Part shown: positions 6,212 through 28,617 of the stretch, in pieces
Layout of the letters: each line of letters starts with the position of its first letter
How positions within the stretch are numbered: the first letter of the stretch is position 1
Assembly (NCBI GenBank): GCA_947453625.1
Contig: CANGHK010000003.1
Coordinates: 1 to 64,000, forward strand
Source: Burkholderiales bacterium
GTDB taxonomy: Bacteria > Pseudomonadota > Gammaproteobacteria > Burkholderiales > Burkholderiaceae_C
DNA: 64,000 nucleotides
Reading direction: 5' to 3'
The notes under the pieces: model-generated
The model's database searches: none
The model's input: the letters and a program-made list of their open reading frames with translations, nothing else
Told to the model about the DNA's origin: nothing
Translations under genes and position numbers: made by a program

Positions 6212-6735
6212 CCGGGGCACTGCTCCAAAGCCTGGACGGCCTGCTGCTGCTGTTGTTCGGCACCGGTGCGCTGGCCGCCGCGGCGCTGATGATCGTGTCA
6301 CGGCAGCCGATGCGGGTAGCGATGGCGCTGATCACCACCATGGTCTGCCTGGGCGTGGTCTACGGCCTGCTCGGCGTGCACTTCATCGCAGCCTTCCAGG
6401 TGCTGATCTATGTCGGCGCGGTAATGGTCTTCATGGTCTTCGTGATCATGCTGCTCGATGTGCGCGAGGCCACCGGACCGCGCTTTTCCAGCCTGCTGTG
6501 GCCGGGATTGATCGGTTTCGCGCTGCTGCTGGGTGCCATCGTCATCAGCATCTGGCGCACCCTGCCCGCCCCGGTGGGCAACATCGGCCAACAGGGCTAC
6601 GGCATCGCGAGCTTCTCGGCCACCTTCCTCAACCAGTACTGGCTGCATTTCGAACTCACCTCGGTGCTGCTGGTGGCCGCGGTGGTGGCGGCGCTGGCCG
6701 TCATCAAGGTCAGCCGGAGAGCGCACCATGGATAG
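6208..6735 (+). CDS. nuoJ: NADH-quinone oxidoreductase subunit J
   Basis: This 175-aa membrane subunit (ND6) has about five transmembrane helices. The family segment AAFQVLIYVGAVMVFMVFVIMLL, which contains the pi-bulge helix linked to conformational coupling, is present from about residue 62. The ATG at 6208 overlaps the nuoI stop, giving the normal length of 170-200 aa. The 3' end overlaps nuoK by eight bases. Confidence 0.95.
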   Translation: MTGALLQSLDGLLLLLFGTGALAAAALMIVSRQPMRVAMALITTMVCLGVVYGLLGVHFIAAFQVLIYVGAVMVFMVFVIMLLDVREATGPRFSSLLWPGLIGFALLLGAIVISIWRTLPAPVGNIGQQGYGIASFSATFLNQYWLHFELTSVLLVAAVVAALAVIKVSRRAHHG

Positions 6736-7030
6736 AACGCAGTTCTTGCTGGGCCTGTCGGTGGCGCTGTTTGCCATCGGCCTGCTCGGCGTGATCGTCC
6801 GGCGCAACGTGCTGGTGATGCTGATGTGCATGGAGTTGATGCTCAACGGCGTCAACCTCAGCCTGGTGACCTTCGCCCAGCAGACCGCCACCACCGCCGG
6901 CGCGGTGCTGGTCTTCCTGATCTTCGTCGTGGCCACGGCTGAAATTGCCCTGGCCATCCCCATCGTGCTGCTGCTGGTCCGCGACAAGCGCACGCTGGAC
7001 ATCGATGCCTACAGCGACCTGAAGGGTTGA
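6728..7030 (+). CDS. nuoK: NADH-quinone oxidoreductase subunit K
   Basis: This 100-aa membrane subunit (ND4L) has three transmembrane helices, with the conserved Glu of helix 2 in MLMCMELMLNGVNL. That Glu takes part in the central proton axis. The protein starts MDRTQFLLGLSVALFAIGLLGV and has exactly the usual family length of about 100 aa. It overlaps nuoJ by eight bases and sits six bases before nuoL. Confidence 0.96.
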   Translation: MDRTQFLLGLSVALFAIGLLGVIVRRNVLVMLMCMELMLNGVNLSLVTFAQQTATTAGAVLVFLIFVVATAEIALAIPIVLLLVRDKRTLDIDAYSDLKG

Positions 7031-7036
7031 CCTTCG

Positions 7037-8939
7037 ATGTCATCCATGCTCACCGTCATCGTTCTGCTCCCGCTGCTCGGCTTCGTGCTGAACGGCGTGC
7101 TCGCCACCCGCCTTGGCGAGGGTCAGGGCGGCCCCCGCGTCGGCAAACGCTTCGTCACCGTGGTGGGCTGCGCCCTGCCGCTGCTGTCCTTCGTGCTGGT
7201 GGTGAAGTCACTGCTGGATCTGAAATCCGGCGGCTACGCGCCGCTGGTCGAGACCGCCTACCGCTGGGCGTCGATTGGCAGCGCCAACTTCGAGGTCGCC
7301 TTCTACTTCGACCGCCTGACCGCGGTGATGGCGCTGATCGTCACCGGCGTCGGGTCAGTGATCCATGTCTACTCGGTCGGCTACATGGCGCACGACAAGA
7401 GTTTTGGCCGCTTCTTCGCCTACCTCAACCTGTTCCTGTTCTTCATGCTGCTGCTGGTGTTGGGCCGCTCGCTGCTGGTGCTGTTCGTCGGCTGGGAAGG
7501 CGTCGGCCTGGCCTCCTACCTGCTGATCGGCTTCTGGTTCGACGACCTGGCCAACGCCCGCGCCGGCAAGAAGGCCTTCATCACCAACCGCATCGGCGAC
7601 GCGGGTTTCCTGCTGGGCATGTTCGTGCTCTACCAGGCACTGGGCACGCTGGACATGGACCGCATCAACACCGCATTCAGCCACGGCAACGCGGCTACCC
7701 TGGTGTCGGCCAGCATGGTGGGCATCCTGCTGTTCGTCGGCGCCACCGGCAAGTCGGCGCAGATCCCCCTGCATGTCTGGCTGCCCGACGCGATGGCCGG
7801 CCCGACACCGGTCTCGGCCCTGATCCACGCCGCCACCATGGTCACGGCCGGGGTCTACCTGGTCGCGCGTATGGCGGGCGTCTACCTGCTGGCACCCGAG
7901 GCCTCGATGGTGATCGCAACCGTCGGCGTGGCCACCGCGTTTTTTGCCGCCACCGTGGCGCTGGTGCAGACCGACATCAAGAAGGTGCTGGCCTACTCGA
8001 CCGTCTCGCAGTTGGGCTTCATGTTCCTGGCGCTGGGCGTAGGTGCCTACGGCGTGGCGATCTTCCACGTCGTCACCCACGCCTTCTTCAAGGCCTGTCT
8101 GTTCCTAGGCGCGGGCAGCGTGATCCACGCGCTGGGCGGCGAGCAGGACGTGCGCAAGATGGGCGGCCTGGCGCGCAAGATCCCGGTCACCTTCATCACT
8201 TTCGCGGTGGCCACGGCGGCGATCGCCGGCATCCCGCCGCTGGCCGGGTTCTTCTCGAAGGACGAGATCCTGTGGTACGCCTTCGCCAGCACGCGGGGCG
8301 GGTCAGCGCTGCTGTGGGGTATCGCCGCAGCCACGGCGTTGATGACGGCCTTCTACATGTTCCGCCTGCTGTGGTTGACCTTCCTCGGCAAATCGCGGAT
8401 GACGCCGGAGGTCGAACACCATGCTCACGAATCCCCGTTGTCCATGACCGGCGTGCTGATGCTGCTGGCCGTGCTGTCAGCACTCGGCGGATTCATCGCG
8501 ATACCGCATTTCCTGGAGCCCCAATTGCCCTTGCCCGCCGTGCACGAATCGCTGCACCATTTCGAGACCCCGCTGCTGGTGCTGTCGGTCGTGCTGGCAG
8601 CCGCCGGCCTCGGCCTGGCCTGGTTGCTGTACGGCGGCACGTCCGGCCGTGTCGACCGACTGCAGCAATCCTTTGCCGGCCTGCACCGCTGGCTGTCGGG
8701 CAAGTACTTCATCGACGAGTTGTACGAGCGGGTGATCAACCAACCGCTGGTCTGGATCTCCGACCGGGTCTTCCTGCGGTTGGGCGACCGCATCCTGCTC
8801 GACGGCACCCTCAACGGGATGGCGGCAATCGGACGCTTTGGCGGCGGCTTGCTGGGCCGCCTGCAGACCGGCAGCCTGCAGTGGTATGCCTTGTTCGTGC
8901 TGAGCGGTATCGTCGGCGCCGTGCTCTGGAGCTGGCGCC

Positions 8940-8947
<8 letters not shown>
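7037..8947 (+). CDS. nuoL: NADH-quinone oxidoreductase subunit L
   Basis: This 636-aa distal antiporter-like subunit (ND5) pumps protons and carries the long lateral helix at its C-terminal end. Family signatures are LFVGWEGVGLASYLLIGFW, the helix 5-7 segment with the conserved Glu, IPLHVWLPDAMAGPTPVSAL with its HxxxxD motif, and VQTDIKKVLAYSTVSQLG. The length is close to the family norm (about 610-670 aa). The ATG at 7037 lies just after the nuoK stop. The 3' end overlaps nuoM by eight bases. Confidence 0.97.
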
Positions 8948-10486
<1,539 letters not shown>

Positions 10487-10490
<4 letters not shown>

Positions 10491-11875
10491 TCAGCCACGC
10501 CGTGTTGACCGCGATGATGCCCGAGCATCTGCTGCTGCTGGGCATCGTGCTGTTGATCGCCATCGAGATCGCCGGCCACTGGCAGCGTGCCGCGCTGGCA
10601 GTGGCGCTGGTCTGTGTCGGCGCGGCGGCGCTGACTGCGCTCAACCTGTCGCTGTCGGGCTACTCGACAGCGCCCTTCGCCGGGCAGTTCTCGGTCGACC
10701 CTGCCACGCTGCTGGCCAAGGCGATGGTGCTGGCGCTGGCGCTGCCGGTGCTGCTGATGTCGCGTAACGATTTCTCGGATGGCGAGTTCCCTATCCTGCT
10801 GCTGTCTTCGCTCTACGGCGCCTGCCTGATGCAGTCGGCCGACAGTTTCCTGACGCTGTTCCTCGGGCTGGAGATCATGTCGCTGCCAGTCTATGTGCTG
10901 GTGCTGCTGGCCTACCGCCGGCCGCAAAGTGCCGAAGCCGCGCTCAAATACCTGGTGCTGGGCGGAGTGGCCTCGGCCATGCTGCTGATGGGGGCGTCGC
11001 TGCTGTATGGCGGCACCGGATCGCTAGCGCTGTCGGCGTTCTCGAAGGCGCTGGCCGCACCCGACAACATGGCGCGCGCGGCCGTCGTGCTGGTGATCCT
11101 GGCGTTCTTCCTGAAAGCCGCGATCGTGCCCTTCCATGCCTGGGCGCCCGATGCCTACGAAGGCGCCAGCGTGCCGGTGACGGCCTACATGGCGACGATC
11201 GTCAAGGCCGCGGTGTTGCTGACGGCGGTGCGGCTGTTCGGCCAGGCGGTGCTGGCCTCGCCGATGCTGGAGTTGCTGGCTGTGTTGCCGCTGGCCTCCA
11301 TCGTCTGGGGCAACCTGGCCGCCATGAAGCAGCTCAGCCTGCGCCGCTTGATCGCCTACAGTTCGATCGCTCATGCGGGCTACCTGTTCTACGCCTTGCT
11401 GGGTGCTGCGGAAGGCCGGTTGCAGGCCGTCACCTTCTATGTGCTGGCCTACGCGCTGATGAACCTGCTGGCCTTCGCCTCATTGCCGGCGTCGGATGAC
11501 GACAGCCTGCGCGACCGCCTGGACAAGCTGAAGGGCTTGTTCCACCGCTCACCCTTCGCAGCGCTCATGATAGGCATCGCGATGCTGTCTCTGGCCGGTC
11601 TGCCGCCCTTCCCCGGCTTCGTCGCGAAGTTCATGATCTTCCGCAACGTGATGGCCGCGGGTCATACGACTTACGCGGTGCTCGGCCTGGTCGGCAGCTA
11701 CCTCGGGATCTACTTCTACCTGCGAGTGATACAACTGATGTTCATGAGCCCGGACGCCGCAGCGGCGCCGGCGGGCAAGTCATCCCGCGGCTTGGCGATG
11801 GGTGCCAGCCTGGCCTGTCTGGTGGCTGCGTTGCTGGTGGCGGTTTTCCCTGGCTGGATGATGGCCCGTCTCTGA
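10487..11875 (+). CDS. nuoN: NADH-quinone oxidoreductase subunit N
   Basis: This 462-aa antiporter-like subunit (ND2) is the last gene of the complex I operon. The signature blocks are FLGLEIMSLPVYVLVLLAY with the conserved Glu, IVPFHAWAPDAYEGASVPVTA, and MKQLSLRRLIAYSSIAHAGY. The length fits the family (about 480 aa). It ends at 11875 and is convergent with the small minus-strand gene at 11950, with a GC-rich hairpin between them. Confidence 0.97.
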
Positions 11876-11914
11876 GCCGGTGGCGTCACCGCTGAGCGCC
11901 CTGAAGCCGGACGA

Positions 11915-11932
11915 GGCCGGCCAAGGCCGGTC
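11915..11932. terminator. GC-rich hairpin at nuo operon end
   Basis: CCGGCC-AA-GGCCGG forms a perfect six-base-pair stem that can be extended by a G-C and a G-U pair on the outside. It lies in the 74-base gap between convergent nuoN and the minus-strand gene. The flanking T-tract is weak (TCTTGCC), so it may stop transcription poorly or act as an mRNA 3' stabiliser. The loop is tight unless the inner pair opens. Confidence 0.45.
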
Positions 11933-11949
11933 TTGCCGTGGCTCCCTGC

Positions 11950-12426
11950 TCAGTTGCCGGCGCGCTTGGCCACCGGCGAGTACATGTCCATCAGTTGGAC
12001 GCGCGTGGCGCGCAGCCGCTCCGAGACCACGCCCATCAGCCGCAGCATGAAGGCCAGGCCGAATTCAGGGTCGCGCTTGAAGGCGGCCAGCAACTGCTCG
12101 CCCTCGAACGCCAGCGCCGTCACCGGACTCAGCGCGCGGGCCTGGAAGTGCTTGCCGGCATGCGGCAACAAGGCCGACCAGTCGAGCTCATCGCCGGCAT
12201 ACAGGGTCTGCACGCGCAGCACCGTCTCGGCCGACTCCAGTTCCAGCGCCACCATGCCCGAGCCCAGCAGGTAGAAGACCGAGTAGACGTCGCCCTCGCG
12301 AAAAATTACCTGGTTGGGGTCGAACTGCACCTGCTTGGCCAGCGAGGCCAGGATGGCATTGTGCTCGGGCCGGAACTCGGCGACAAACGGATGCTTCTGG
12401 AGTTCCTGCAACAGGGTCTGTGTCAT
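11950..12426 (-). CDS. Stand-alone cyclic-nucleotide-binding domain protein
   Basis: This 158-aa protein consists only of a Crp-like cyclic-nucleotide-binding beta-barrel. The turn FREGDVYSVFYLLGSGMVAL, the segment LYAGDELDWSALLP and the C-terminal helix VVSERLRATRVQLMDMYSP match the fold. No helix-turn-helix follows, so it is not a DNA-binding Crp/Fnr regulator by itself. The start is MTQTLLQELQKHPF at 12426; the upstream in-frame extension has no family resemblance. It lies between complex I and the 2-oxoacid oxidoreductase cluster, divergent from the latter across 368 bases (12427-12794). It may bind a nucleotide or another small ligand and act on a partner protein; the ligand is unknown. 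No gene is seen in the 368-base gap. Confidence 0.8.
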   Translation of the reverse strand: MTQTLLQELQKHPFVAEFRPEHNAILASLAKQVQFDPNQVIFREGDVYSVFYLLGSGMVALELESAETVLRVQTLYAGDELDWSALLPHAGKHFQARALSPVTALAFEGEQLLAAFKRDPEFGLAFMLRLMGVVSERLRATRVQLMDMYSPVAKRAGN

Positions 12427-12547
12427 GGCCTGGTTCCTGCCGTGGTCGTTCGTTGTCGGATGTGCGAAGCGGCCGATGGCGAATGGGCACCCGAGGGCCG
12501 GCCGCAAGGGAAAAGTCGATTCTGCGCCCGGCACTGACGGCTTGAGA

Positions 12548-12561
12548 TTGACCTTGCTCAA
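12548..12561. promoter_or_regulatory. Candidate FNR/ANR-type site upstream of nfn-kor cluster
   Basis: TTGACCTTGCTCAA is a palindrome that keeps the Crp/Fnr-family anaerobic core TTGA-N6-TCAA, with one mismatch in each half relative to TTGAT-N4-ATCAA. It lies between the divergent cyclic-nucleotide-binding protein (start 12426) and the nfnA-like gene (start 12795), and could serve either. The similar sites at 21887, 28604 and 31511 raise its plausibility. Binding is not shown. Confidence 0.5.
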
Positions 12562-12794
12562 ACGGGCACGGCGACTGTCCGCCATCCGAAGTAAGTGGCG
12601 GAGACGCTGCCACACAGGGGCTAGAAAGCCGCTCATATGGCATTGGGGCACGATTGATCCACCGCAAGGGGTCAACCCTGCACGCCGTTACGCTGGATTC
12701 TGTCAAACATCAAGCGGACTTCGTCCCCTGCACGACAGCATCCGGCAAGCCCGAATCTGGCAGGTTGGTCAGGCGCCGCAGCCCGAGGGATAGC

Positions 12795-13685
12795 ATGTCC
12801 GATTTCGAGATCGTTGCACGCGAAGATTTTTCCGAGGTCACCTACCTGCTTGAGGTGCGCCACCCGCAGATGGCCAGGGCCGCCAAGCCAGGCCAATTCG
12901 TCATCGTGATGGAACATGAAAAAGGTGAACGCATCCCGCTGACCATCGCCGACTTCGACCACGACAAGGGCACGATCACGCTGGTGATCCAGGCGGTCGG
13001 CAAGACCACGAGGGAGATGCAACGCAACTGCCGCGTCGGCACGCATCTGCATGCGATGGTCGGACCGATGGGCATCCCCAGCCACATCGGCCAGGCCAAG
13101 AAAGTGATCTGTGTCGGCGGTGGCTTGGGCGTGGCGCCGGTCTACCCCCAAGCCCGCGCGTACAAGGAAAGCGGCGCCTATGTCATTGGCGTGCTGGGTT
13201 TCCGCAACCAGAGCCTGATGTTCTGGGAAGACAAGTTCCGCGCCTGCTGCGATGAACTGATCGTCTGCACCGACGACGGATCGGCCGGCATCAAGGGCCT
13301 GGTCACCGAGGGCATCCGGCAGGCGATAGCCCGGCATGCCGACATCGACGAGGTGGTGGCGATAGGCCCGCCGATCATGATGAAGGGCTGCGCCGATGCA
13401 ACGCGCGCGCTGGGCATCAAGACCCTGGTCAGCCTGAACCCGGTGATGGTCGACGGCACCGGCATGTGTGGCGGCTGCCGCGTCAAGATCGGCGATACGG
13501 TCAAGTTTGCCTGCGTCGACGGACCTGATTTCGACGGCCACCAGGTCGATTTCGACGACCTGATGGCGCGCCTGGGGCGCTACAAGTCGACCGAGAAGAG
13601 CGCGCTGGAAGCCTTCAACGAAAGTTGCCGCATCCGCGCCACGGCCGACACGGTTGCGCCTGACAAGGCGGCGGACCCGCACTGA
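12795..13685 (+). CDS. NfnA/SudB-like ferredoxin-NADP reductase family subunit
   Basis: This 296-aa flavoprotein resembles the small subunit of NADH-dependent ferredoxin:NADP oxidoreductase (NfnA) and sulfide dehydrogenase SudB. It has an N-terminal FAD-binding barrel (RIPLTIADF), a nucleotide-binding domain (VICVGGGLGVAPVYPQ, about residue 105) and a C-terminal [2Fe-2S] motif. Cys225, Cys228 and Cys240 (MCGGCRV and FACVDGPDF) are present. Asp220 in MVDGTG lies where NfnA uses an Asp as the fourth ligand. The start MSDFEIVARED at 12795 has a GAGGG ribosome site. It precedes an NfnB-like gene, as in known Nfn operons. It probably exchanges electrons between NAD(H) and the partner subunit; calling it bifurcating is inference. 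Confidence 0.85.
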   Translation: MSDFEIVAREDFSEVTYLLEVRHPQMARAAKPGQFVIVMEHEKGERIPLTIADFDHDKGTITLVIQAVGKTTREMQRNCRVGTHLHAMVGPMGIPSHIGQAKKVICVGGGLGVAPVYPQARAYKESGAYVIGVLGFRNQSLMFWEDKFRACCDELIVCTDDGSAGIKGLVTEGIRQAIARHADIDEVVAIGPPIMMKGCADATRALGIKTLVSLNPVMVDGTGMCGGCRVKIGDTVKFACVDGPDFDGHQVDFDDLMARLGRYKSTEKSALEAFNESCRIRATADTVAPDKAADPH

Positions 13686-13736
13686 GGCACTCGCTCAGCG
13701 ACCCGCTCGCCCGCACCCTCCGATCAGGAACCGACC

Positions 13737-15242
13737 ATGGCCAAGAAGAAGACGATACGCACCATCCCGCAGGCGCGCACGCCCATGCCCGAGCAGAGTC
13801 CGCAGGCGCGGGTGACGAACTTCGACGAGGTGGCCTGCGGTTACCGCTTGGAAGACGCGCTGGTCGAGGCCGAACGCTGCCTGGATTGCGCTGACCAGCC
13901 CTGCGTGCGCGGTTGCCCGGTCGGCATCGACATCCCCGGCTTCATCCTGAAGATGAGCGCCAAGAACTTCCATGGCGCCTACGACGTGATCACCGACACC
14001 AACCTGCTGCCCTCGGTGTGCGGCCGGGTGTGTCCGCAGGAAAACCAGTGCGAAGGGGTTTGCACCGTGGGCGAGACGCTGGAGCCGGTGGCGATCGGCA
14101 GGCTCGAGCGCTTTGTCGGTGACATGGCGATTGCCCAGGGCTGGACCAACATCCCCTACATCGAGCCCACCCGCTTCAAGGTCGGCATCGTCGGGTCGGG
14201 TCCGGCCGGCATGGCCTGCGCCGCCGACATGGCCAAGGCCGGTTGCGACGTCACCGTCTACGAGGCCTTCCACGAGCCCGGTGGCGTGCTCAAGTACGGC
14301 ATCCCCGACTTCCGCCTGCCCAACAGCGTGGTCGATATGGAGATCGGCAAGCTCAGGCAATTGGGCATCAAGTTCGAATGCAATACCCTGGTCGGGCGGC
14401 TGTTCACGGTCGAGCAGATGCTTACCGAGATGGGTTTCCACGCGGTGTTCATCGGCACCGGCGCGGGCTACCCGAGCTTCATGGGCATACCGGGCGAATC
14501 GCTGGGCGGCGTGCTGTCGGCCAACGAGTGGCTGACGCGCTGCAACCTGATGCGCGGGCGCGACTTTCCGGCCTACGACACCCCACTGCAACCGGGCCGG
14601 CGCGTGGCGGTGATAGGCGCCGGCAACACGGCGATGGACGCGATGCGCGTCTCGCTGCGGGTTGGCGCCGAGAAGGTTTATTGCATCTACCGGCGCAGCG
14701 CGGCCGAAGCACCCGCCCGGGCCGAGGAGATCCACCATGCGCACCAGGAAGGCGTCGATTTTCAGTGGCTGACGAGCCCGCTGGAGTTGCTGGGCGACGC
14801 GGCCAAGAACGTTCGCGCGATGCGCTGCGAGCGCATGGAACTCGGTGAGCCCGACAGCTCGGGCCGGCGCCGGCCGGTAGCTGTGCCGGGCAGCGAATTC
14901 GAATTTGAATGCGACATGGTGGTGTTCGCGATCGGCACCCATGCCAACCCCATCCTCGGCCAGACCTCGGGCCTGAAACTGGACAAGCGCGGCTACATCG
15001 CCACCGACGAGCACCTGGCCACCTCGATCGCCGGTGTCTACGCCGGCGGCGATATCGTCACCGGTGCCGCCACGGTGATCCAGGCCATGGGCGCCGGCCG
15101 CAAGGCTGCGCGCGGCATGAAGGCCTACCTCGGACTGCGCGATAGCGCGGTCGTCTACCAGCCCGATGACCTCGATCCAGCGGCCAGGCTGTTCGGCATC
15201 GCCCGCGGCGAGCGCAATTTCGCCCGCGTCCATCTGGCCTGA
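13737..15242 (+). CDS. NfnB/GltD-like NADPH oxidoreductase subunit
   Basis: This 501-aa iron-sulfur flavoprotein belongs to the glutamate synthase small-subunit family, in the branch that includes NfnB, SudA and KorC-type subunits. The N-terminal region has two [4Fe-4S] sets: Cys48, 51, 56 and 60 (CLDCADQPCVRGCP) and Cys95, 99, 105 and 109 (CGRVCPQENQCEGVC). FAD binding is at VGIVGSGPAGMACA, NADPH binding at VAVIGAGNTAMDAMR, and the FAD-closing motif is GVYAGGDIVTGAATV. No glutamate synthase large subunit is nearby, while 2-oxoacid:acceptor oxidoreductase subunits follow. A related FAD subunit makes the Azoarcus 2-oxoglutarate oxidoreductase NADP-dependent, so this protein is probably the NADP(H) module of the neighbouring enzyme or half of an Nfn complex. 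An AGGAA ribosome site precedes the ATG. Confidence 0.88.
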   Translation: MAKKKTIRTIPQARTPMPEQSPQARVTNFDEVACGYRLEDALVEAERCLDCADQPCVRGCPVGIDIPGFILKMSAKNFHGAYDVITDTNLLPSVCGRVCPQENQCEGVCTVGETLEPVAIGRLERFVGDMAIAQGWTNIPYIEPTRFKVGIVGSGPAGMACAADMAKAGCDVTVYEAFHEPGGVLKYGIPDFRLPNSVVDMEIGKLRQLGIKFECNTLVGRLFTVEQMLTEMGFHAVFIGTGAGYPSFMGIPGESLGGVLSANEWLTRCNLMRGRDFPAYDTPLQPGRRVAVIGAGNTAMDAMRVSLRVGAEKVYCIYRRSAAEAPARAEEIHHAHQEGVDFQWLTSPLELLGDAAKNVRAMRCERMELGEPDSSGRRRPVAVPGSEFEFECDMVVFAIGTHANPILGQTSGLKLDKRGYIATDEHLATSIAGVYAGGDIVTGAATVIQAMGAGRKAARGMKAYLGLRDSAVVYQPDDLDPAARLFGIARGERNFARVHLA

Positions 15243-15311
15243 CTGATCAGCCTGGATTCAGCGTACCTGCCTGCCGATTCACCCGCTTCCACCTTACCCC
15301 TTGCGCACACC

Positions 15312-17252
15312 ATGAGCGACACGCAGACCCTTTCCCCACCCGAAGCGCCGGTCCGCGGTGCCGACCCCACGCCGCGGCCTGCGCTGGCGATCGGCGAGCA
15401 CATCGTCGAGGTGATCAGCGACTCGGGTGAAGGCGCGCAGAGATGCGGCCAGTCGCTGGCGGCGATCGCCGCGCGCATGGGCAACGGCATCTGGACCACC
15501 GAGATCATCCCGGCCGAGATCCAGCCACCGGCACGCAGCGTTGCCGGGGCCAGCGGCATCCGCATCCGCATCGGCTCCGAGCGCGTGAGCAATGGCGGCG
15601 ACCAGACCGATCTGGTGGTAGCCTTCAACGAGCAGGTACTGATCGGCCGGGTGCAGGCCGATGAGCTCAAGCCCGGCGCCACCATCCTGCTCGAGAGCAT
15701 GTGGCGCATCCACCGTGACCCGGCGGTGGTGGACTCCTACCTGAAGACGGTCGAGGCGTTGCGGCGAGACGGATTCAAGCTCTACGAGGTGCCGCTGGAA
15801 GCGCGCTGCAAGGAACTCGTCAGCGACCCGCGCAAGGGCAAGAACATGTTCGTGCTGGGCCTGCTGTGCAATGTCTACGGCCTGGACGCCGCGTTGGCGC
15901 GCGAGCAGATCGCCCGCATCTTCGGCAAGAAGGACGCCAAGGTCATTGCGAGCAACGTCGCGCTCTACGATGCAGGCGCCGCCTGGGCCGAGGCCCATCT
16001 CGACTTCAAGTTCTGCATCCCGGCACAGCGCAGCAGCCAAGCACAGATCGTCGTCAACGGCAACACCGCGATCGCGCTGGGCGTGATGGCCTCGGGCATG
16101 GACATCTGCGCGATGTACCCGATCACGCCGGCCACCTCGGCGTCGCACTACCTGAGCGAAGTGTTCGAGAAGGTCGGCGGCATGGTGCACCAGGCCGAGG
16201 ACGAGATCGCTGCCTGCGCTTTCGCCGTGGGCGCGTCCTACGCCGGCAAATGCGCGGTCACCATCACCTCGGGCCCGGGCTACTCGCTCAAGCAGGAGGT
16301 CATCGGTCTGGCGGTGATGGCCGAGATCCCGCTGGTGGTGGTCAACGTCCAACGCGGCGGCCCGAGCACCGGCCAGCCGACCAAGGTCGAGCAGGGCGAC
16401 GCGCTGGCGGCGATGTTCGGCAGCCACGGCGATGCGCCGAAAGTGGTTCTGGCGCCCTGCAGCATCGAGGACTGCTTCTACTCGGTGATCACCGCGCGCA
16501 AGATCGCCGAGACCTTCGGCATGGTGGTGGTGGTGCTGTCCGACGCCAGTCTGTCCACCGCGCAGCAGCCCTTCCCGCGGCCGCAATTCAGCGAGGACTG
16601 GCTGGCGCCGCCGGTCGACCAGACACCCGTGCCGGCCGGCGCCAAGCCCTACGACTGGGACCCGGTCACTGGGCTGTCGCGGCGCTTTCAGCCCGGCCAG
16701 CCCGGAGGCATGCACACCCTCACCGGACTGGCGCACGACCGCTCCAGCAAGGTGGCCTACGACCCGAAGATCAACGAGGAGGGCCTGCGCGCGCGCGGCC
16801 TGAAGCTCGCCGCGCTGCAAAAGACGCTCAAGCCGCCACCGGTGTTCGGCGGCGCACCCGACGAAGGCGGCGACCTGCTGCTGGTGGGCTGGGGCAGCAC
16901 GATGGGCGCGATCGAGGAGGCGGTGACCCGACTGCGCGCCGAGGGACTGGCCGTCTCGTCCATGCACCTGCGCTTCCTGCAACCGATGGCCTCGGGCATA
17001 CGCGAGATCCTGAAACGCTTCAAGCAGGTGATGACGATCGAGGGCAACTGGTCCGACAAGCTCGAGGACGAGCTGATCGACGAGGACAACCGCCGCTACT
17101 CGGCGCTGGCGATGCTGTTGCGCTCGCGCTTCCTGGTCGACATCGACTGCTGGAGCGAGGCGCGCGGCCAGCCGATCAAGCCTGGCGACATCTGCCGCGT
17201 CGCACGCTCGTCCTTGCAAGCCACCCTGCAACCCACGGTACACACATCATGA
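15312..17252 (+). CDS. korA: 2-oxoacid:acceptor oxidoreductase, fused gamma-alpha subunit
   Basis: This 646-aa protein joins the gamma domain (about residues 25-210, starting HIVEVISDSGEGAQRCGQSL) to the alpha domain. The alpha domain carries the family motif YPITPATSASHYLSE near residue 268 and continues with SGPGYSLKQEVIGLAVMAEIPLVVVNVQRGGPSTGQPT. With the beta subunit it decarboxylates a 2-oxoacid to acyl-CoA and CO2, or the reverse, using thiamine diphosphate and iron-sulfur clusters. The gamma-alpha fusion and the GGPSTGQPTK stretch are typical of 2-oxoglutarate:ferredoxin oxidoreductases, so 2-oxoglutarate is the likeliest substrate, though pyruvate or branched-chain oxoacids cannot be excluded. 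The stop overlaps the beta-subunit start. Confidence 0.88.
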   Translation: MSDTQTLSPPEAPVRGADPTPRPALAIGEHIVEVISDSGEGAQRCGQSLAAIAARMGNGIWTTEIIPAEIQPPARSVAGASGIRIRIGSERVSNGGDQTDLVVAFNEQVLIGRVQADELKPGATILLESMWRIHRDPAVVDSYLKTVEALRRDGFKLYEVPLEARCKELVSDPRKGKNMFVLGLLCNVYGLDAALAREQIARIFGKKDAKVIASNVALYDAGAAWAEAHLDFKFCIPAQRSSQAQIVVNGNTAIALGVMASGMDICAMYPITPATSASHYLSEVFEKVGGMVHQAEDEIAACAFAVGASYAGKCAVTITSGPGYSLKQEVIGLAVMAEIPLVVVNVQRGGPSTGQPTKVEQGDALAAMFGSHGDAPKVVLAPCSIEDCFYSVITARKIAETFGMVVVVLSDASLSTAQQPFPRPQFSEDWLAPPVDQTPVPAGAKPYDWDPVTGLSRRFQPGQPGGMHTLTGLAHDRSSKVAYDPKINEEGLRARGLKLAALQKTLKPPPVFGGAPDEGGDLLLVGWGSTMGAIEEAVTRLRAEGLAVSSMHLRFLQPMASGIREILKRFKQVMTIEGNWSDKLEDELIDEDNRRYSALAMLLRSRFLVDIDCWSEARGQPIKPGDICRVARSSLQATLQPTVHTS

Positions 17253-18250
17253 GCCGCTCGTTCTCCCCCTCGCTGAGCCAATGCGTCATCAAGCTGCACG
17301 AGGAGCACCACGCGCTGGAAGACTACCAGGGCGGCGTGCCGCGCTGGTGCAACGGCTGTGGCGACAACGCAATCCTGGCGGCGATGCAACGCCTGTGCAG
17401 CGAAGAGAACCTGGCGCCCGAGAACACCGTGTTCGTCTCGGGCATAGGCTGCTCCAGCCGCCTGCCGCACTACATGAAGACCTACGGCTTCCACAGCCTG
17501 CATGGCCGCGCCTTCCCGGTCGCCGAAGGCATCAAGATGGCCAGGCCCGACCTCAACGTCTTCGTCAGCACCGGCGACGGCGACTGCTGCAGCATAGGCG
17601 CGGCGCACTGGATCCACGCGCTGCGCTACAACATGAACATCACCGTGGTGCTGCACGACAACCATGTCTACGGCCTGACCAAGAAACAGGCCTCGCCGAC
17701 CTCTCCGCGTGGCTTCAAGAGCAACACTACGCCCTATGGCTCGACACTCGAGCCGATGAACCCGCTAACGGTGTCGCTGGGGGTGCAGGGCGCGTCCTTC
17801 ATCGCGCAGGCGGTCGACTGGGTGCCCGAAGTGCTGTTCGACATCATGCAGGCTGCGTTCAGGCACCGCGGCTTCTCGTTCGTGCGGGTGCTGCAGCGCT
17901 GCCCCGAGTTCATGCCCAAGGCCTTCGACCCCTGGCTGCATGATCCGCAACGCACGATGCTGCTGACGCACCCGGATGGGCTGACGCTCAGCCCCGGCCT
18001 GTCGGCCAGCTACCGCAACCAGCGCGTGCACGATCCGATCGACATCGATCGGGCGCGCGAGATCGCCTCGATGGACGATCCCATTCCAGTGGGCATCCTC
18101 TACCGCAACCCCGCCGCGCCCTGCTACGAGGACTTGCGCCATGCCGGCCAGATGCGCTCGCCCGAGTACATCCGCAGCGGCTTCAACCGCGAACTCGACA
18201 AGTACACGGTCTGGCCCGATGAGCCGGACCAGACCCGGAAGGCGGCCTGA
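17249..18250 (+). CDS. korB: 2-oxoacid:acceptor oxidoreductase beta subunit
   Basis: This 333-aa subunit binds thiamine diphosphate and the catalytic [4Fe-4S] cluster. The cofactor motif STGDGDCCSIGAAHWIHALR (from about residue 108) ends near DNHVYGLTKKQASPTSP, the family signature. Cluster ligands fit Cys34 and Cys37 (WCNGCGDN), Cys68 (GIGCSS) and Cys218 (QRCPEF), the same spacing as in archaeal 2-oxoacid:ferredoxin oxidoreductases. It overlaps the gamma-alpha gene by four bases (ATGA), so the two are made together. It is longer at the N-terminus than minimal beta subunits (about 290 aa). Confidence 0.92.
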   Translation: MSRSFSPSLSQCVIKLHEEHHALEDYQGGVPRWCNGCGDNAILAAMQRLCSEENLAPENTVFVSGIGCSSRLPHYMKTYGFHSLHGRAFPVAEGIKMARPDLNVFVSTGDGDCCSIGAAHWIHALRYNMNITVVLHDNHVYGLTKKQASPTSPRGFKSNTTPYGSTLEPMNPLTVSLGVQGASFIAQAVDWVPEVLFDIMQAAFRHRGFSFVRVLQRCPEFMPKAFDPWLHDPQRTMLLTHPDGLTLSPGLSASYRNQRVHDPIDIDRAREIASMDDPIPVGILYRNPAAPCYEDLRHAGQMRSPEYIRSGFNRELDKYTVWPDEPDQTRKAA

Positions 18251-18299
18251 GACAGCAGCCGACGGCGCCCAAGCCGTCTCAACCGAACGAGAACCCGTG

Positions 18300-20510
18300 A
18301 TGGACATGCCAGCCAAGCACCCCGATCAATTGATCTTCCACCTCACCGGCCGGCTGCAAGCCAGCGTCCGGGAGACGGCCTTGTCCGCGACAGCCAGTCT
18401 CGGCCTGCGCCCCGCCCTGCTCGCGCCCTACCGGGATCTCGGCACGCTGCGCCATGACTTTCCGCTGCTGCTCGACGACCGGTGCCAGGGATCCCATGTC
18501 GTGCACTCGCTGACCAGCCTGGTCGATGCGGTGCTCAAGGACGTGGCGCCGCGCGGCATCGAGGGAGAGCGCCTGCGCCGCCATGGACTGCAGCTCGAAT
18601 GCGCGATCCGTCGCGCGGTCGACCAGGGCGCCCAGGGCACGCTGGCCGAGTTGTGGGACCAGGCCGCGGTCGAACTCGGCGCCCGTGAAGGCGAGACGCT
18701 CGAGAAAGTACTGAGTCATGCTGGCGGCGCGCTGCCCGCGGAGGGCGAACTGCTGGGCTGCACGCCCGACATGCCGGCGCGCCTTATCAGCCATGTCTGG
18801 CGCGCGGCGCAGCGCGAAAAGGCGCGCCTGTTCCATGCCGACCTGGCCAGGCTGGTGCTCAAGCTGTCGGACATCCTGCGCGCGGCCTTCAGTCACTCAC
18901 AGGCCGGGCGCCAACCCCAGAGCCTGCGGTCCTCGCTCGGCGGGCCGCACCAGGACGCGTTCGACTTCAACATGCTGTCGCGCATCGTCGGCAAGGGTGC
19001 GCCGCGCGATGAGCTGCCCGCCGACCGGCGGGCGCGACTGGTGCACAGCCTGGGCGTGCTCGAGTCGCAGCGCTTCTTCGCCGCGCCCGATGCGGGCGAG
19101 GACGACAGCTCGGACACCGTCTTCGGTTTCGCCTTCGACAACTGCGCGACCGCGGCCCAGGCCTACCGCGACCGACTGGCCGAGCTGGCCGAGCTGGTCA
19201 AGGCCATCGCGGTCGCCGAGCTCGAAGCCCAGGGCCACTACCGGCCGGCCGAACACGACCTGTTGTTTGAATCCTTCGACCAGAACACCCTCACCAGCGA
19301 GGATCTGGCACGCTTTCCAGACTACCTGGTGTGCATCCCGCCCGAGCGCAACGAGGCCACCGAAAACGTCAATCTGATGGAGATGCTGTCGTCCGGGTTG
19401 CCGGTCAAGGTGCTGGTGCAAACCTCGGACCTGCTGGAAGAGGCATCGATAGGCACCGGCCATTTCGCGTTTGGCGTGCGCAGTGCGCGCTTGGCCACCA
19501 CGGCGATGGGGCTGGGCGGCATGTTCGTGCTGCAGTCGTCCAGCGCCAACCTGGTCGCGATGCACACGCGGATCGCCCGCGGTCTGGCCTGCCGGGGGCC
19601 GGCGCTGTTCAGCGTGTTCACAGGTTCGGCGCAAACCACGGGTGCGCTGCCGCCCTACCTCAGCGCAGCGGTGGCGATGCAGTCACGCGCTTTCCCGGCC
19701 TTCAGCTATGACGCCGCCGCGGGCAGCAACTGGGCCGCGCGCTTCTCGCTCGAGAACAACCCGCAGCCCGACGACGACTGGTCAGTCGAGACGCTGGCCT
19801 ATGTCGACAACGCGCAGCAGCGCGTCAGCACGCCCTGTGCCTTCACCTTTGCCGACTTCGCGCTCTGCGATGATCGACAAGCCACGCATTTCGCCCTGGT
19901 GCCCAGCGCACACTGGGATGCGACGATGTTGCCGGTCGCGGATTGGCTGCTGCTGGACGAGCGGGACGCGGCACAGCGGGTGCCCTATCTGCTGGCGGTC
20001 GACGCGCGGGACGCGCTGCAGCGCGTCATCGTCGATGCCCGGCTGATGCAGGCCACGCGCCGCTGCCAGTTGCTGTGGCACCGCCTGCAAGAGCATGGCG
20101 GCGTACACGATTCGCATGCCGAGCGTCTGCTGGCGCGCGAGCGGGCGGCCTGGATTGCCGAGCAACAACCGCTGGCCACGGCGCCTGCCGCCGCGCCAGT
20201 GACCGCCGCAACGGCGGGCGCTGCAACAGCAGAGGTGGAAACCGCTGCACCGGTGCACTCGCGCGATGAGACCTGGATCGACACCGCACGCTGCCCGAGT
20301 TGCAACGAGTGCCAGTTGATCAACGACCGGATGTTCGGCTACGACGCGAAGAAGCAGGCCTACATCAAGGACCTCAAGGCTGGCAGCTACCGCCAACTGG
20401 TCGAGGCCGCCGAGAGCTGCCAGGTCGCCATCATCCACCCCGGCAAACCGCGCGACCCGAACGAGCCCGGGCTCGAGGACTTGCTGCTGCGCGCCGAACC
20501 CTTCCGCTGA
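18300..20510 (+). CDS. Large protein with TPP-less PFOR-like domain and C-terminal ferredoxin domain
   Basis: This is a 736-aa protein of no established function. Seen directly: a C-terminal single-cluster [4Fe-4S] motif at Cys665, 668 and 671 (CPSCNEC) and Cys707, preceded by an Ala/Thr-rich linker (about 610-650). By eye, residues about 355-520 align with the thiamine-binding C-terminal domain of pyruvate:ferredoxin oxidoreductase (LPVKVLVQTSDLLEEASIG and later FPAFSYDAAAG, ARFSLENNP). The GDGW-type thiamine-diphosphate motif is absent; PPERNEATENVN stands in its place. The first 350 residues are mostly helical and unrecognised. It starts 49 bases after the beta subunit on the same strand, so it probably works with that enzyme as an electron-transfer or scaffold partner. 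The start is the ATG at 18300. Confidence 0.7.
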   Translation: MDMPAKHPDQLIFHLTGRLQASVRETALSATASLGLRPALLAPYRDLGTLRHDFPLLLDDRCQGSHVVHSLTSLVDAVLKDVAPRGIEGERLRRHGLQLECAIRRAVDQGAQGTLAELWDQAAVELGAREGETLEKVLSHAGGALPAEGELLGCTPDMPARLISHVWRAAQREKARLFHADLARLVLKLSDILRAAFSHSQAGRQPQSLRSSLGGPHQDAFDFNMLSRIVGKGAPRDELPADRRARLVHSLGVLESQRFFAAPDAGEDDSSDTVFGFAFDNCATAAQAYRDRLAELAELVKAIAVAELEAQGHYRPAEHDLLFESFDQNTLTSEDLARFPDYLVCIPPERNEATENVNLMEMLSSGLPVKVLVQTSDLLEEASIGTGHFAFGVRSARLATTAMGLGGMFVLQSSSANLVAMHTRIARGLACRGPALFSVFTGSAQTTGALPPYLSAAVAMQSRAFPAFSYDAAAGSNWAARFSLENNPQPDDDWSVETLAYVDNAQQRVSTPCAFTFADFALCDDRQATHFALVPSAHWDATMLPVADWLLLDERDAAQRVPYLLAVDARDALQRVIVDARLMQATRRCQLLWHRLQEHGGVHDSHAERLLARERAAWIAEQQPLATAPAAAPVTAATAGAATAEVETAAPVHSRDETWIDTARCPSCNECQLINDRMFGYDAKKQAYIKDLKAGSYRQLVEAAESCQVAIIHPGKPRDPNEPGLEDLLLRAEPFR

Positions 20511-21684: not shown

Positions 21685-21886
21685 GACGGATTCCTTGTGA
21701 AGGCTAAATTTCCAGATGGGCTTGAGGTGTGAACAAGATGTTTCTGTCGAACGGCTACCCGTCAGTGGCTCATCGGATCATCCATTCCGTGAAGGGATGG
21801 ACATGGGCAGCGCATCTGCCACATGCCTGTGGCCTCAGGCCGCCCCCGCACCGACGGTGAATATGCACCGAGGCATTTTGCGGAAG

Positions 21887-21900
21887 TTGATGCAAATCAA
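21887..21900. promoter_or_regulatory. Perfect FNR/ANR-type binding site upstream of menG-menA
   Basis: TTGATGCAAATCAA matches TTGAT-N4-ATCAA at all ten defined positions and is an exact palindrome in its half sites. It lies 130 bases upstream of the menG/ubiE-like ATG (22031) and about 200 bases upstream of the divergent porin start. Crp/Fnr-family anaerobic regulators recognise this sequence. The best -10-like match downstream is TACAGT at 21934. Confidence 0.75.
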
Positions 21901-22030
21901 GCCGAGTGGACGGTACGACCCATCGCTTGCCCATACAGTGCCCGTACCGGCCAGCCGATCAGGGCCATGCTGTCCAATCGCCGCAGCAGCTTTGCCGAAC
22001 GGTTGGGCCGCCCGCCAGACTTGGAGAACC

Positions 22031-22798
22031 ATGAAAGATCCCCTTCCCCTGTCGCGAACCTTTGGCGACAAGCGCGTCGATGAACAGGAACGAGAACGAG
22101 GCATAAGAGGCGTTTTCGAGGCCGTGGCGCCGCGCTACGACCTGATGAACGACTTGATGAGCCTGGGCATACACCGCTGGTGGAAGCGCTGCCTGGTCCG
22201 CATGGCGGCGCCCGCCGCAGGACAAACCATCATCGACCTGGCCGGTGGCACTGGCGACGTGGCCGCCCGCATGGCAGGACCGGACCGCAAGGTGACGGTG
22301 GTCGACCCCAGCCCGGCGATGATGGCGGTCGGGCGTGCGCGCGGCCTGGACCAAGTGGCATGGCAGGTCGGCACCGCCGAACACCTGCCGCTGGCCGATG
22401 CTTCGGTCGACACGCTGACGATGGCCTTCGGCATCCGCAACGCCACCCGCGTCGACAACGCGCTGGTCGAGATCTTGCGGGTCCTCAAGCCCGGAGGCCG
22501 CCTGCTCTGCCTCGAGTTCTCGACCCCGGCGGTCTGGCTGCGCCCGGCCTACCGGCTCTTCTCGTTCCAAGTCATTCCAAGACTGGCCGCCTGGATCACC
22601 GGTTCACCGCAGGCCTATACCTATCTGGTCGAGTCGATTCGCCGCTTCCCCGACCAGCCCACCTTCGCCCGCCAGATCGAGGAGGCTGGTTTCACTGGGG
22701 TGGATTTCAGCAACCTGAGCTTCGGCATCGCCTGCATCCATGTCGGCATCTGTCCCGCCCGGCCGGTCGACCGTGAGCACCCAAGCGCCTCGTCTTGA
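22031..22798 (+). CDS. menG: Demethylmenaquinone/ubiquinone C-methyltransferase family
   Basis: This 255-aa class I SAM-dependent methyltransferase is of the UbiE/MenG family. It starts MKDPLPLSRTFGDKRVDEQER, has the family entry VFEAVAPRYDLMNDLMSLGIHRWWKR, and the SAM site IIDLAGGTGDVAARMA followed by VDPSPAMM. AFGIRNATRVDNALVEILRVLKPGGRLLCLEF is the second family signature. UbiE methylates both ubiquinone and menaquinone precursors. Because MenA follows directly and the site at 21887 is FNR-like, this copy is best read as the menaquinone enzyme (MenG), possibly additional to a housekeeping ubiE elsewhere. The start at 22031 has GGAG just upstream; the longer open frame from 21716 has no family sequence. 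Confidence 0.88.
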   Translation: MKDPLPLSRTFGDKRVDEQERERGIRGVFEAVAPRYDLMNDLMSLGIHRWWKRCLVRMAAPAAGQTIIDLAGGTGDVAARMAGPDRKVTVVDPSPAMMAVGRARGLDQVAWQVGTAEHLPLADASVDTLTMAFGIRNATRVDNALVEILRVLKPGGRLLCLEFSTPAVWLRPAYRLFSFQVIPRLAAWITGSPQAYTYLVESIRRFPDQPTFARQIEEAGFTGVDFSNLSFGIACIHVGICPARPVDREHPSASS

Positions 22799-22881
22799 CA
22801 TTGCGCAAGGCGAACGGCCGGGTCGCACGCTGAAAATCCACCGCCTGAGTTGCCGTGTCTCGCGGTGGAAGTGAGAAGCCC

Positions 22882-23823
22882 ATGACCGCAGAAAGAACCA
22901 TCTCGAACATCGCCGATCCGGTACGGGCAGGTTCACTGCAGGCCTGGGCGGTTGCTGTGCGGCCACGCAGTCTGCTGGTGGCGATCAGCCCGGTTCTCGT
23001 CGGAGGCACCTTGGGATTCGACCGCACGGGCGCGATCGATCTGGTGGCTGCCCTGCTGGTGTTCGGCGCGGCGCTGTTGATGCAGGTGATCACCAACATG
23101 CAGAACGATGTCGGCTACACCGTGCGCGGCGGCGACAGCAGCGGCACCCGCACCGGCCTGCCGCGCGCCACCGCCAATGGCTGGCTGAGCGTGCGCCATG
23201 TGCGCGCCGGCATCGTGCTGGTGGCCCTGGTGGCGGCAGCGATGGGGCTGGGGCTGGTGGCCTACCGGGGCTGGCCCGTGCTGGCCATAGGCTCAGCATC
23301 GCTGTTGGCTGCGCTGGCCTACATGGGTGGCCCGAGGCCGATTGCCTACTCACCCTTCGGCGAACTGACGGTGTTCGTCTTCTTCGGCCTGGTCGCGGTG
23401 ATGGGCACCGACTGGGTGTTGACCGGCAGCGTCGGTCTCGTCAGCGGCCTGGCCTCGGTGGCGATCGGTTGCCTGGCGGCGGCCGCGCTGGCGGTGAACA
23501 ACCACCGCGACATCGCGCACGACCGTCTGGTCGGCCGACGCACTTTCGCGGTCACTTTTGGCGACGCTGCGTCGTCCGGCCTCTACGCGGTGCTGTTGCT
23601 GGCGCCCTATGCGCTGGTGCCGATGATGGCGCTGGCGGCGCGCGCACCCATGCTGCTGCTGCCGCTGCTGCTGCTGCCGGTGTCGCTGCAGTTGAGGCAG
23701 GATTTCGTGCACTGCCCGCGGGGCACGGCATTCAATGAGATGCTGTTCCGCACCTTCCGGCTAGAACTGTGGTTCGCGGCGCTGCTGTCGGCCGGCGCGC
23801 TGTTGTCGAGGATGCTGGGCTGA
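22882..23823 (+). CDS. menA: 1,4-dihydroxy-2-naphthoate polyprenyltransferase
   Basis: This 313-aa integral-membrane prenyltransferase of the UbiA superfamily attaches the polyprenyl tail to 1,4-dihydroxy-2-naphthoate, the step before MenG. It opens with AWAVAVRPRSLLVAISPVLVG, has the first Asp-rich motif NMQNDVGYTVRGGD and the second motif NNHRDIAHDRLVGRRTFAV, and about eight or nine hydrophobic helices. These two motifs match MenA rather than UbiA. The chosen ATG at 22882 gives MTAERTISN; a GTG at 22855 is an alternative. The stop overlaps the next gene's ATG by one base (TGATG). Presence of menA indicates that the organism makes menaquinone, consistent with the Wolinella-like fumarate reductase nearby. 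Confidence 0.9.
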   Translation: MTAERTISNIADPVRAGSLQAWAVAVRPRSLLVAISPVLVGGTLGFDRTGAIDLVAALLVFGAALLMQVITNMQNDVGYTVRGGDSSGTRTGLPRATANGWLSVRHVRAGIVLVALVAAAMGLGLVAYRGWPVLAIGSASLLAALAYMGGPRPIAYSPFGELTVFVFFGLVAVMGTDWVLTGSVGLVSGLASVAIGCLAAAALAVNNHRDIAHDRLVGRRTFAVTFGDAASSGLYAVLLLAPYALVPMMALAARAPMLLLPLLLLPVSLQLRQDFVHCPRGTAFNEMLFRTFRLELWFAALLSAGALLSRMLG

Positions 23824-24936: not shown

Positions 24937-25752
24937 CTACCTCAGCGCCATGCTGACCATCTTGCGGCGCATGAAGGCGATCTGGGTGGCCAGCGGCAAG
25001 TGCTTGGGGCAGACATCATGGCAGGCCAGCAGCGACATGCAGCCGAAAACGCCTTCGTCGTCGCCGACGAGATCGTAGAAATCCTCGTCGTCTCGGGTGT
25101 CGCGCGGATCCAGCCTGAAGCGGGCGATCTTGTTCAGCCCGACCGCACCAACGAAGTCCTCGCGCATGCGTGCCGTGCCGCAGGCCGCCACGCAGCAGCC
25201 GCATTCGATGCAGCGATCGAGCTCGTAGATGCTCTCGGCCAATTCGGGCGCCATGCGGACTTCGAGCCGGGTCAGGTCGGGCAGGGCTTCCTGCTGGTGC
25301 ACCCAGGCCTGCAACCGCTCGCTCATGCCGCGCATCCACTTTCCGGTGTTGACCGACAGGTCGCCTATCAGTTCAAACACCGGCAGAGGCGCCAGCGTGA
25401 ACTCATCGCCCAGGTCCTGGGTCAGCGTGCGGCAAGCCAGCGCCGGGCGGCCGTCGACCAGCATCGCGCAACTGCCGCAGATGCCGGCTCGGCAGACGAA
25501 ATCGAACTGCAGCGAGGGGTCTAGCTTCTCGCGGATTTCGCTCAACGCGATGAACAGCGTCATGCCGGCCGCGTCGAGCAAGTCATAGGTCTGCCAATGC
25601 GGCGCATCACCGTGCTGCTGCGGGTTGAAGCGCAGCACGCGTATCCTGAGCCGGCGCATGGCTGCGCCATTCGTCGCCGGTGTAGCGGACGATGTCGCGG
25701 CAGGCGTCGCAGCGGTGAATGGCGTCACGACCGGATGGATGGGAATGATCAT
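24937..25752 (-). CDS. frdB: Fumarate reductase iron-sulfur subunit
   Basis: This 271-aa subunit wires FrdA to the membrane haems through [2Fe-2S], [4Fe-4S] and [3Fe-4S] clusters. Motifs are [13 protein letters not shown] (with the later CRTL), [13 protein letters not shown], and [17 protein letters not shown]. It resembles Wolinella-type FrdB (about 239 aa) almost throughout: for example [17 protein letters not shown] and FRRR-like end [11 protein letters not shown]. The ATG at 25752 overlaps the frdA stop by four bases but adds a 31-residue Ala/Thr-rich leader absent from that family. The internal ATG at 25659 ([11 protein letters not shown]) gives the family length and may be the true start. 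Confidence 0.94.
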
Positions 25753-27731: not shown

Positions 27732-27741
27732 CGGAACTCTC

Positions 27742-28527: not shown

Positions 28528-28603
28528 GAGGCTGTCTCCTGACACCGGCTGATCACGGCTTGGCGCCGTGGCCGAGATGTTGCCCCCCTCGGCCATAAAG
28601 CGC

Positions 28604-28617
28604 TTGAGCCACATCAA
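28604..28617 (-). promoter_or_regulatory. FNR/ANR-type site upstream of frdCAB
   Basis: Read on the frd strand, TTGATGTGGCTCAA matches TTGAT-N4-ATCAA with one mismatch and keeps the TTGA-N6-TCAA core. It lies 77 bases upstream of the frdC start, in the 268-base gap (28528-28795) that separates it from the alpha/beta hydrolase gene. Position and sequence suit anaerobic activation of fumarate reductase. Nothing else is recognised in that gap. Confidence 0.7.

Follow-up and report, generated by a model that had tools for sequence, protein, structure and literature searches.

A conserved five-gene unit in a Burkholderiales genome that may join a 2-oxoacid oxidoreductase to NfnA and NfnB relatives through a gutted pyruvate:ferredoxin oxidoreductase half

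A 64,000-nucleotide stretch of DNA from a Burkholderiales bacterium (contig CANGHK010000003.1 of assembly GCA_947453625.1, hereafter the window) carries at positions 12795-20510 five co-directional open reading frames (ORFs) on the + strand, which are called A, B, C, D and E here and belong to a rare gene set of fixed order. We lean towards the reading that the five products form a single multisubunit 2-oxoacid:NAD(P) oxidoreductase, in which E would wire a KorAB-type enzyme (C and D) to an NfnAB-type module (A and B). E itself is a homologue of the C-terminal half of pyruvate:ferredoxin oxidoreductase (PFOR) in which the active site and most of the iron-sulfur (Fe-S) ligands have been lost. 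The five genes of the window, where TPP stands for thiamine pyrophosphate, are:

12795..13685, + strand: A, 296 aa, NfnA/SudB-like subunit with FAD and [2Fe-2S]
13737..15242, + strand: B, 501 aa, NfnB/GltD-like subunit with FAD and [4Fe-4S]
15312..17252, + strand: C, 646 aa, KorA-type gamma-alpha subunit of a 2-oxoacid oxidoreductase
17249..18250, + strand: D, 333 aa, KorB-type beta subunit (TPP, one [4Fe-4S] cluster)
18300..20510, + strand: E, 736 aa, relative of long-PFOR C-terminal halves that has lost the TPP motif and most cluster ligands, with a C-terminal [4Fe-4S] ferredoxin domain

The intergenic distances in the window are 51 bp between A and B, 69 bp between B and C, -4 bp between C and D, which overlap by the four bases ATGA, and 49 bp between D and E. 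A preliminary description of this DNA had reported five consecutive genes with short gaps or overlaps and had placed A to D in NfnA-like, NfnB-like, gamma-alpha and beta families; the five + strand ORFs were found just so, and the Pfam and NCBIfam matches given below bear out the four families.

The order of the genes is strictly kept in other genomes. Species genomes (84,980) were scanned for E with a five-sequence alignment, which gave 127 pattern stretches and 90 relatives, 80 of them kept; the scan relied on two peptide patterns, and E proteins without those patterns would be missed. A to E were searched by tblastn on these 80 loci, 76 of which are titled as metagenome-assembled genomes; the other four titles are Ideonella sp. 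A 288 (L042), Rubrivivax sp. A210 (L099), Ramlibacter lithotrophicus RBP-1 (L103) and isolate BURC (L081). All five genes were matched in 52 of the 80, and in each of these 52 they follow the order A-B-C-D-E on a single strand, with median gaps of 18, 31.5, 2 and 27 bp and a median span of 7.6 kb, E being partial or cut by the locus end in some (L107, L113, L116). The 28 incomplete loci comprise 26 that begin part-way through the set and two that are broken upstream, namely L041, where C is matched only from residue 142 and the preceding 2.2 kb contain no match to A or B, and L094, which contains a run of 200 N and has A and B unmatched. D adjoins E in 79 of the 80 loci, and the remaining one (L098) begins inside E. 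A stop was flagged inside the aligned stretch of one A, two C, five D and one E among the 80 loci, and some locus labels distant from Proteobacteria, namely Chloroflexi, Acidobacteria and Thermoleophilia, may reflect wrong binning.

The same association was seen when whole genomes were compared. C was matched at at least 70% identity in 12 of 399 genomes of the order (the genome of the window and 11 others), the next match being at 38%, and A at at least 75% identity in the same 12 genomes in a second draw of 398 genomes of the order. The next-best A matches, at 53-57%, are to open frames 803-861 aa long, a length that suggests fused Nfn proteins. E was present in all 14 five-gene genomes given to the search, i.e., the 11 of the order draw together with G011, G016 and G018. 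No full-length E was found in the 13 genomes tested out of 85 that have only distant KorA relatives, two of these 13 giving partial E matches in frames of 1640-1722 aa. Among 40 relatives E was found in five, the own genome counted, and among same-genus genomes in three of 20; in a sample of 398 genomes of the phylum there was no full-length E match apart from the own one. The five-gene unit is rare and patchy in its distribution. In a KorA tree of 33 rows, the 17 sequences from five-gene loci form one group on a long stem with support of 100/99. The preliminary description had proposed that the set be sought in other genomes; separated genes without co-occurrence were looked for in relatives, and what we found instead was one order throughout, with A, C and E in the same 11 genomes.

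By their sequences, A and B are full-length relatives of NfnA and NfnB, above the model cut-offs and with complete ligand sets. A matches NCBIfam NF004862 with 383.7 bits (cut-off 220) and the Pfam domain DHODB_Fe-S_bind, and B matches TIGR01316 with 572.2 bits (cut-off 471.75) and Fer4_20. Among solved structures, the best relative of A is the P. furiosus NfnI chain 5jca_S (E 3e-95), followed by 4ylf_A (2.2e-74) and 5vj7_B (1.9e-49), A being far nearer to P. furiosus NfnI and 4ylf than to 5vj7. We take 4ylf to be the NfnAB of Thermotoga maritima, and these two nearest solved relatives of A are presumably bifurcating. For B the solved relatives are 4ylf_B (E 2.4e-170), 5jca_L (4.5e-144) and 5vj7_A (4.7e-136), and the ranking is as for A, yet 5jca_L and 5vj7_A score almost equal. 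By analogy with NfnAB, we assume that A is the NAD(H) side and B the NADP(H) side. Residue conservation in A to D was counted over 43 loci with five complete uninterrupted genes together with the window, 44 sequences in all. D220, C225, C228 and C240 of A are invariant in 44/44, as are C48, C51, C56, C60, C95, C99, C105, C109, E102, R319 and R320 of B, of which the two arginines are presumably the RR of the YRRS motif; a ninth cysteine of B, C34, is present in 29/44. The Fe-S ligand residues of both proteins align with those of 5jca and 4ylf. B also has N- and C-terminal tails that lie beyond the region aligned to the solved Nfn chains and are conserved in the 44 sequences, and these tails may be part of a complex interface.

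C and D resemble the two subunits of a 2-oxoglutarate:ferredoxin oxidoreductase (OGOR). C matches TIGR03710 with 492 bits (cut-off 482.75), its best solved relative is 6n2n_A (E 1.6e-83), by entry title the Magnetococcus OGOR, and its YPITP motif, R348 and T353 are invariant in 44/44. D has TPP_enzyme_C and PFO_beta_C above cut-off and no Fer4 domain, and matches TIGR02177 slightly below cut-off (252.7 bits against 261.9; E 5e-75); its solved relatives are 5b48_B (E 2.4e-53) and 6n2n_B (E 3.8e-53), and C34, C37, C68, C218 and the GDGD motif (G109-D112) are invariant in 44/44. Both C and D are without a built-in ferredoxin domain, and both have conserved C-terminal stretches that extend past the part aligned to the solved chains. 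According to passages of the published work on the 2-oxoacid:ferredoxin oxidoreductase (OFOR) of S. tokodaii, Arg344 and the Thr of YPITP hold the carboxylate, Lys125 is linked to CoA, and specificity is shaped by Lys49, Leu123 and Asp468; the K49R mutant favoured pyruvate, and the D468A and K49I mutants lost 2-oxoglutarate activity (PMC5020499). The positions which those passages give as Lys49, Leu123, Lys125 and Asp468, assigned here by hand, are occupied in C and D of the window by Arg, Leu, Lys and Leu, and the Magnetococcus OGOR has the same four residues in the printed alignments. These pocket residues suit a bacterial 2-oxoglutarate enzyme, without proving such a substrate, and judged by similarity 2-oxoglutarate is most likely the substrate of C-D.

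Residues of E were counted over 72 near-complete E proteins and the window (73 sequences), eight of the 80 being left out. The only Pfam match of E is Fer4_13 at the C-terminus, slightly below cut-off (24.1 vs 24.5); there was no NCBIfam family at E <= 0.1, nor any match at E <= 0.1 to POR_N, PFOR_II or POR, which represent the N-terminal domains I-III of PFOR. When the 73 E sequences were compared by hhalign with five long-PFOR C-terminal halves (those of G307 and G399 among them), the probability was 100% with an E-value of 7e-63, and the match covers E from residue 9 to its end and the C-terminal PFOR half only, the residue-by-residue alignment being displayed to about residue 620. The four cysteines of a C-terminal single-cluster ferredoxin (C665, C668, C671 and C707) are kept in 73/73 E proteins. 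The TPP motif GDG is absent in 71/73, the window's E included. C322, C325, C452 and C656 of the long PFOR, which we take to be cluster ligands, are represented in E only by the equivalent of C325 (E C154, 72/73), and the cysteines of PFOR ferredoxin domain V are not conserved in the corresponding stretch of the 73 E sequences. The AlphaFold2 model of E has a mean pLDDT of 88.9 and a pTM of 0.80. Foldseek gave no match to this model below E 0.001. PFORs fill rows 1-12 and 16 of the first 18 rows, and oxalate oxidoreductase the remaining two, the query TM-scores being 0.15-0.21. In row 19, D. africanus ferredoxin I fits E with an rmsd of 1.2 over 59 columns. E evolves faster than A-D, the mean pairwise identity over the 44 sequences being 0.51 for E vs 0.72-0.76 for the other four. 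From pair to pair, the identity of E correlates with that of B, C and D (Spearman 0.84-0.86) and less closely with that of A (0.65), relatedness inflating such correlations.

Long PFORs related to E were examined at three loci:

7237-12165: long PFOR of L039 (G307)
7494-12425: long PFOR of L040 (G399)
4462-9381: long PFOR of L159 (G475)

The C-terminal part of these proteins (1639-1643 aa), from shortly before domain V to the terminal ferredoxin, is homologous to the entire E. Unlike E, they have intact GDG and cluster cysteines and are fused to the PFOR N-terminal half, and their partner is Rnf, not Nfn. All three lie between an rnfB-like gene and rnfC, with rnfD following; the rnfB-like proteins were called from domains or from models slightly below cut-off, and further long PFORs occur in G754 and in genomes of the phylum sample. 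Because of this position, these three relatives of E also adjoin an NAD-reactive electron-transfer machine, which suggests that the long PFOR feeds Rnf directly. The genome of the window also has a separate fused NfnA-NfnB of 819 aa at L173 (G000:C47:29000-39720). Judged by eye, its neighbours there look like a rubrerythrin-type protein, a PFOR of 1229 aa whose GDG is intact, and a dihydroorotate-dehydrogenase-like protein. Nfn thus stands beside an oxoacid oxidoreductase twice in this genome, in the window and, as fused Nfn and PFOR, at G000:C47. The window unit, the fused Nfn with its PFOR and the rnf-adjoining PFORs point to a wider theme of direct wiring.

In the mechanism that we propose, the KorA-KorB pair (C and D) would use TPP and CoA to decarboxylate a 2-oxoacid, 2-oxoglutarate being the likeliest, and two low-potential electrons would leave C-D via the single [4Fe-4S] cluster. 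E would dock as a non-catalytic pseudo-subunit whose one [4Fe-4S] cluster sits between KorB and NfnB, and NfnA-NfnB would use their Fe-S clusters and flavins to hand the electrons on to NADP on NfnB and to NAD on NfnA. The most speculative step is that the Nfn module acts as it does in NfnAB, in which case the overall reaction might be 2-oxoglutarate + CoA + NADH + 2 NADP -> succinyl-CoA + CO2 + NAD + 2 NADPH, in either direction. The sequences show a conserved gene set, the cofactor residues of A-D, and in E the homology to PFOR and a lost active site; the assembly into a physical complex, the route of the electrons, the substrate 2-oxoglutarate and the use of both NADP and NAD are what we infer. 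One complex is argued for by the conserved order and strand in 52/52 loci, the co-occurrence of A, C and E and the invariant cofactor residues of A-D, and further by the tails of B, the E identities that track B, C and D, the PFOR relatives beside rnf and some neighbours from the tricarboxylic acid (TCA) cycle. That E serves as a wire is suggested by the four ferredoxin cysteines, kept in 73/73 while TPP and most cluster ligands are lost. It is a more tentative and rather doubtful proposal that the enzyme is a permanently assembled bifurcating or confurcating 2-oxoglutarate oxidoreductase, with the PFOR half as scaffold and one-cluster wire, which would couple NADH and NADPH without free ferredoxin. 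If the proposal of one complex is true, the enzyme would link an important TCA reaction to the NAD(H) and NADP(H) pools alike and would illustrate the reuse of a dead enzyme half as an electron wire. The unit is also a compact system in which the joining of an Nfn module to a 2-oxoacid oxidoreductase can be tested.

Several points weigh against these proposals. Co-occurrence demonstrates one functional unit, not one particle, and gene linkage is no test of bifurcation. The 2-oxoglutarate assignment is similarity-based, and Arg and Leu replace the Lys49 and Asp468 named in the passages on the S. tokodaii enzyme. The match of E to PFOR in Foldseek is weak (best E 2.2e-3), and the E proteins of L080 and L083 keep GDG at the canonical TPP position; the preliminary description had called E a TPP-less PFOR-like ferredoxin protein, of which the kinship with PFOR stands on the hhalign result and the loss of TPP holds for 71 of the 73 sequences, these two being the exceptions. 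Queries for sucA, sucB and lpd matched none of the 80 loci, and gltA was found in the flanks of only seven, directly downstream of the unit in L092, L095, L104 and L112; in G775, which is not one of the 80, a divergent sucA begins roughly 0.5 kb from A. Canonical sucA is above cut-off in 13 of the 15 genomes with the unit, so that the unit is usually not the sole route. A missing 2-oxoglutarate dehydrogenase (OGDH) as the reason for the unit was considered and rejected, with sucA above cut-off in 22 of the 24 genomes examined; of the two exceptions, G018 gave no match and G702 a fragment, and as both have the unit, it may replace sucA in them.

Among the alternatives, the one that we take most seriously, without preferring it, is a simple 2-oxoacid:NAD(P) oxidoreductase that does not bifurcate, with NfnAB as nothing more than an outlet to NADP or NAD, as in other OFORs with GltD-like subunits. 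GltD-like genes do adjoin other KorA-KorB pairs (in the own genome, in neighbouring loci and in G490), but both Nfn subunits with full ligands occur in all 43 complete loci, where one would seem enough. It is possible, though on balance unlikely, that the same assembly acts on another 2-oxoacid, e.g. pyruvate or an aromatic or branched-chain oxoacid. Specificity is unreadable from sequence alone, the Lys49 and Asp468 to which the S. tokodaii passages refer are not kept, and a GltD-KorA-KorB set stands beside the unit in 12 of the 80 loci, where two enzymes for the same substrate would look redundant; the TIGR03710 match, the affinity to 6n2n, the common pocket positions and the gltA or sucA neighbours of a minority of loci speak for 2-oxoglutarate. 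We also think it unlikely that there is no tight complex at all, KorAB and NfnAB being separate enzymes of one pathway and E a large soluble shuttle carrier. KorAB and NfnAB relatives operate with diffusible ferredoxin and E has a full set of ferredoxin cysteines, but a carrier of this kind leaves some 650 PFOR-derived residues ahead of the ferredoxin domain of E, and the strict gene order and the conserved tails of B better suit a fixed assembly.

Less probable still is operation in reverse, as a reductive carboxylase that would make 2-oxoglutarate from succinyl-CoA and CO2, driven by NADPH through Nfn. The nearest solved relative of C is the KorA of Magnetococcus, which is a reverse-TCA enzyme, and Nfn can in principle supply low-potential electrons; a complete gene for OGDH E1 alongside the unit in 13/15 genomes argues against this direction. 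Electron supply for benzoyl-CoA reductase or nitrogenase, as by KorAB of Thauera or AadN of R. palustris, seems very improbable to us. PF06050 genes occur in seven of the 15 five-gene genomes, and AadN is described in passages of its report as a homologue of Nfn that belongs to a pathway of this kind (PMC9973337), but PF06050 is unmatched in the own genome (95.6% complete) and is found also in three of nine same-genus genomes without the unit. G508, G720, G784 and G769 moreover carry a different KorA paralogue within 4 kb of a PF06050 gene, which makes it unlikely that the unit is the ketoglutarate:ferredoxin oxidoreductase (KGOR) of an aromatic pathway. For nitrogenase, nifH is above cut-off in two of the 15 genomes with the unit, the own not among them, and in one of the nine without. 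Across these 24 genomes (15 with the unit, nine same-genus ones without), neither PF06050 nor TIGR01287 supported a supply role, and the candidate was set aside. Our preference stays with a single oxidoreductase wired by E.

The surroundings of the unit vary. The adjoining GltD-KorA-KorB sets, whole or in part (e.g. L042, L044, L072), occur in varied orientations, and in the nine loci measured their KorA shares 65-83% identity with the copy that the genome of the window has at G000:C8 (L174). When the flanks were compared for shared neighbours, the largest cluster touched only 14/80 loci, on both strands, spurious frames being likely among the flank ORFs. Upstream of A in the window, at 11950-12675 on the - strand and divergent from A, lies a gene for a cyclic-nucleotide-binding-domain protein whose Pfam hits include no DNA-binding domain. 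It was considered as a candidate regulator, but such a protein precedes the unit in just two of the 80 loci, L050 and L099, at least 2 kb upstream of A being present in 47/80. Downstream, frdB-, frdA- and cytochrome b-type frdC-like genes at 24937-28962 on the - strand look like a quinol:fumarate reductase set, and ubiE-family and UbiA-family genes lie near them at 21716-23823. Elsewhere in the genome, NifH-family matches occur at G000:C25 (231 bits) and G000:C27 (203 bits), far under the nifH cut-off; these are possibly bchL and bchX, and the organism may therefore be phototrophic.

The modules of the unit can be compared with known systems. The OGOR of Magnetococcus marinus (6n2n) is like C-D in its gamma-alpha and beta subunits, the one [4Fe-4S] cluster in beta, the YPITP motif and the pocket positions, and its chains match C and D only, not A, B or E. 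NfnAB (5jca, 4ylf) is like A-B, which are full-length relatives with all the Fe-S ligands; unlike NfnAB, A-B are encoded with a 2-oxoacid oxidoreductase and E, and B bears the conserved extra tails. In the 2-oxoglutarate:NADP oxidoreductase of Azoarcus evansii, a 2-oxoacid oxidoreductase is reportedly joined to a GltD-like NADP subunit, and to our knowledge that enzyme has no NfnA and no PFOR-derived subunit. AadN of R. palustris is likewise an Nfn homologue in low-potential electron transfer in a proteobacterium and differs in being a single gene of anaerobic aromatic degradation; the strains listed in its report have aadN or korAB, not both (PMC9973337). No description of the five-gene set or of a gutted PFOR subunit was found among titles and abstract starts, most subscription papers lying outside this coverage. 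The modules are known, and it is their fixed combination in five genes that is new, E being the novel part.

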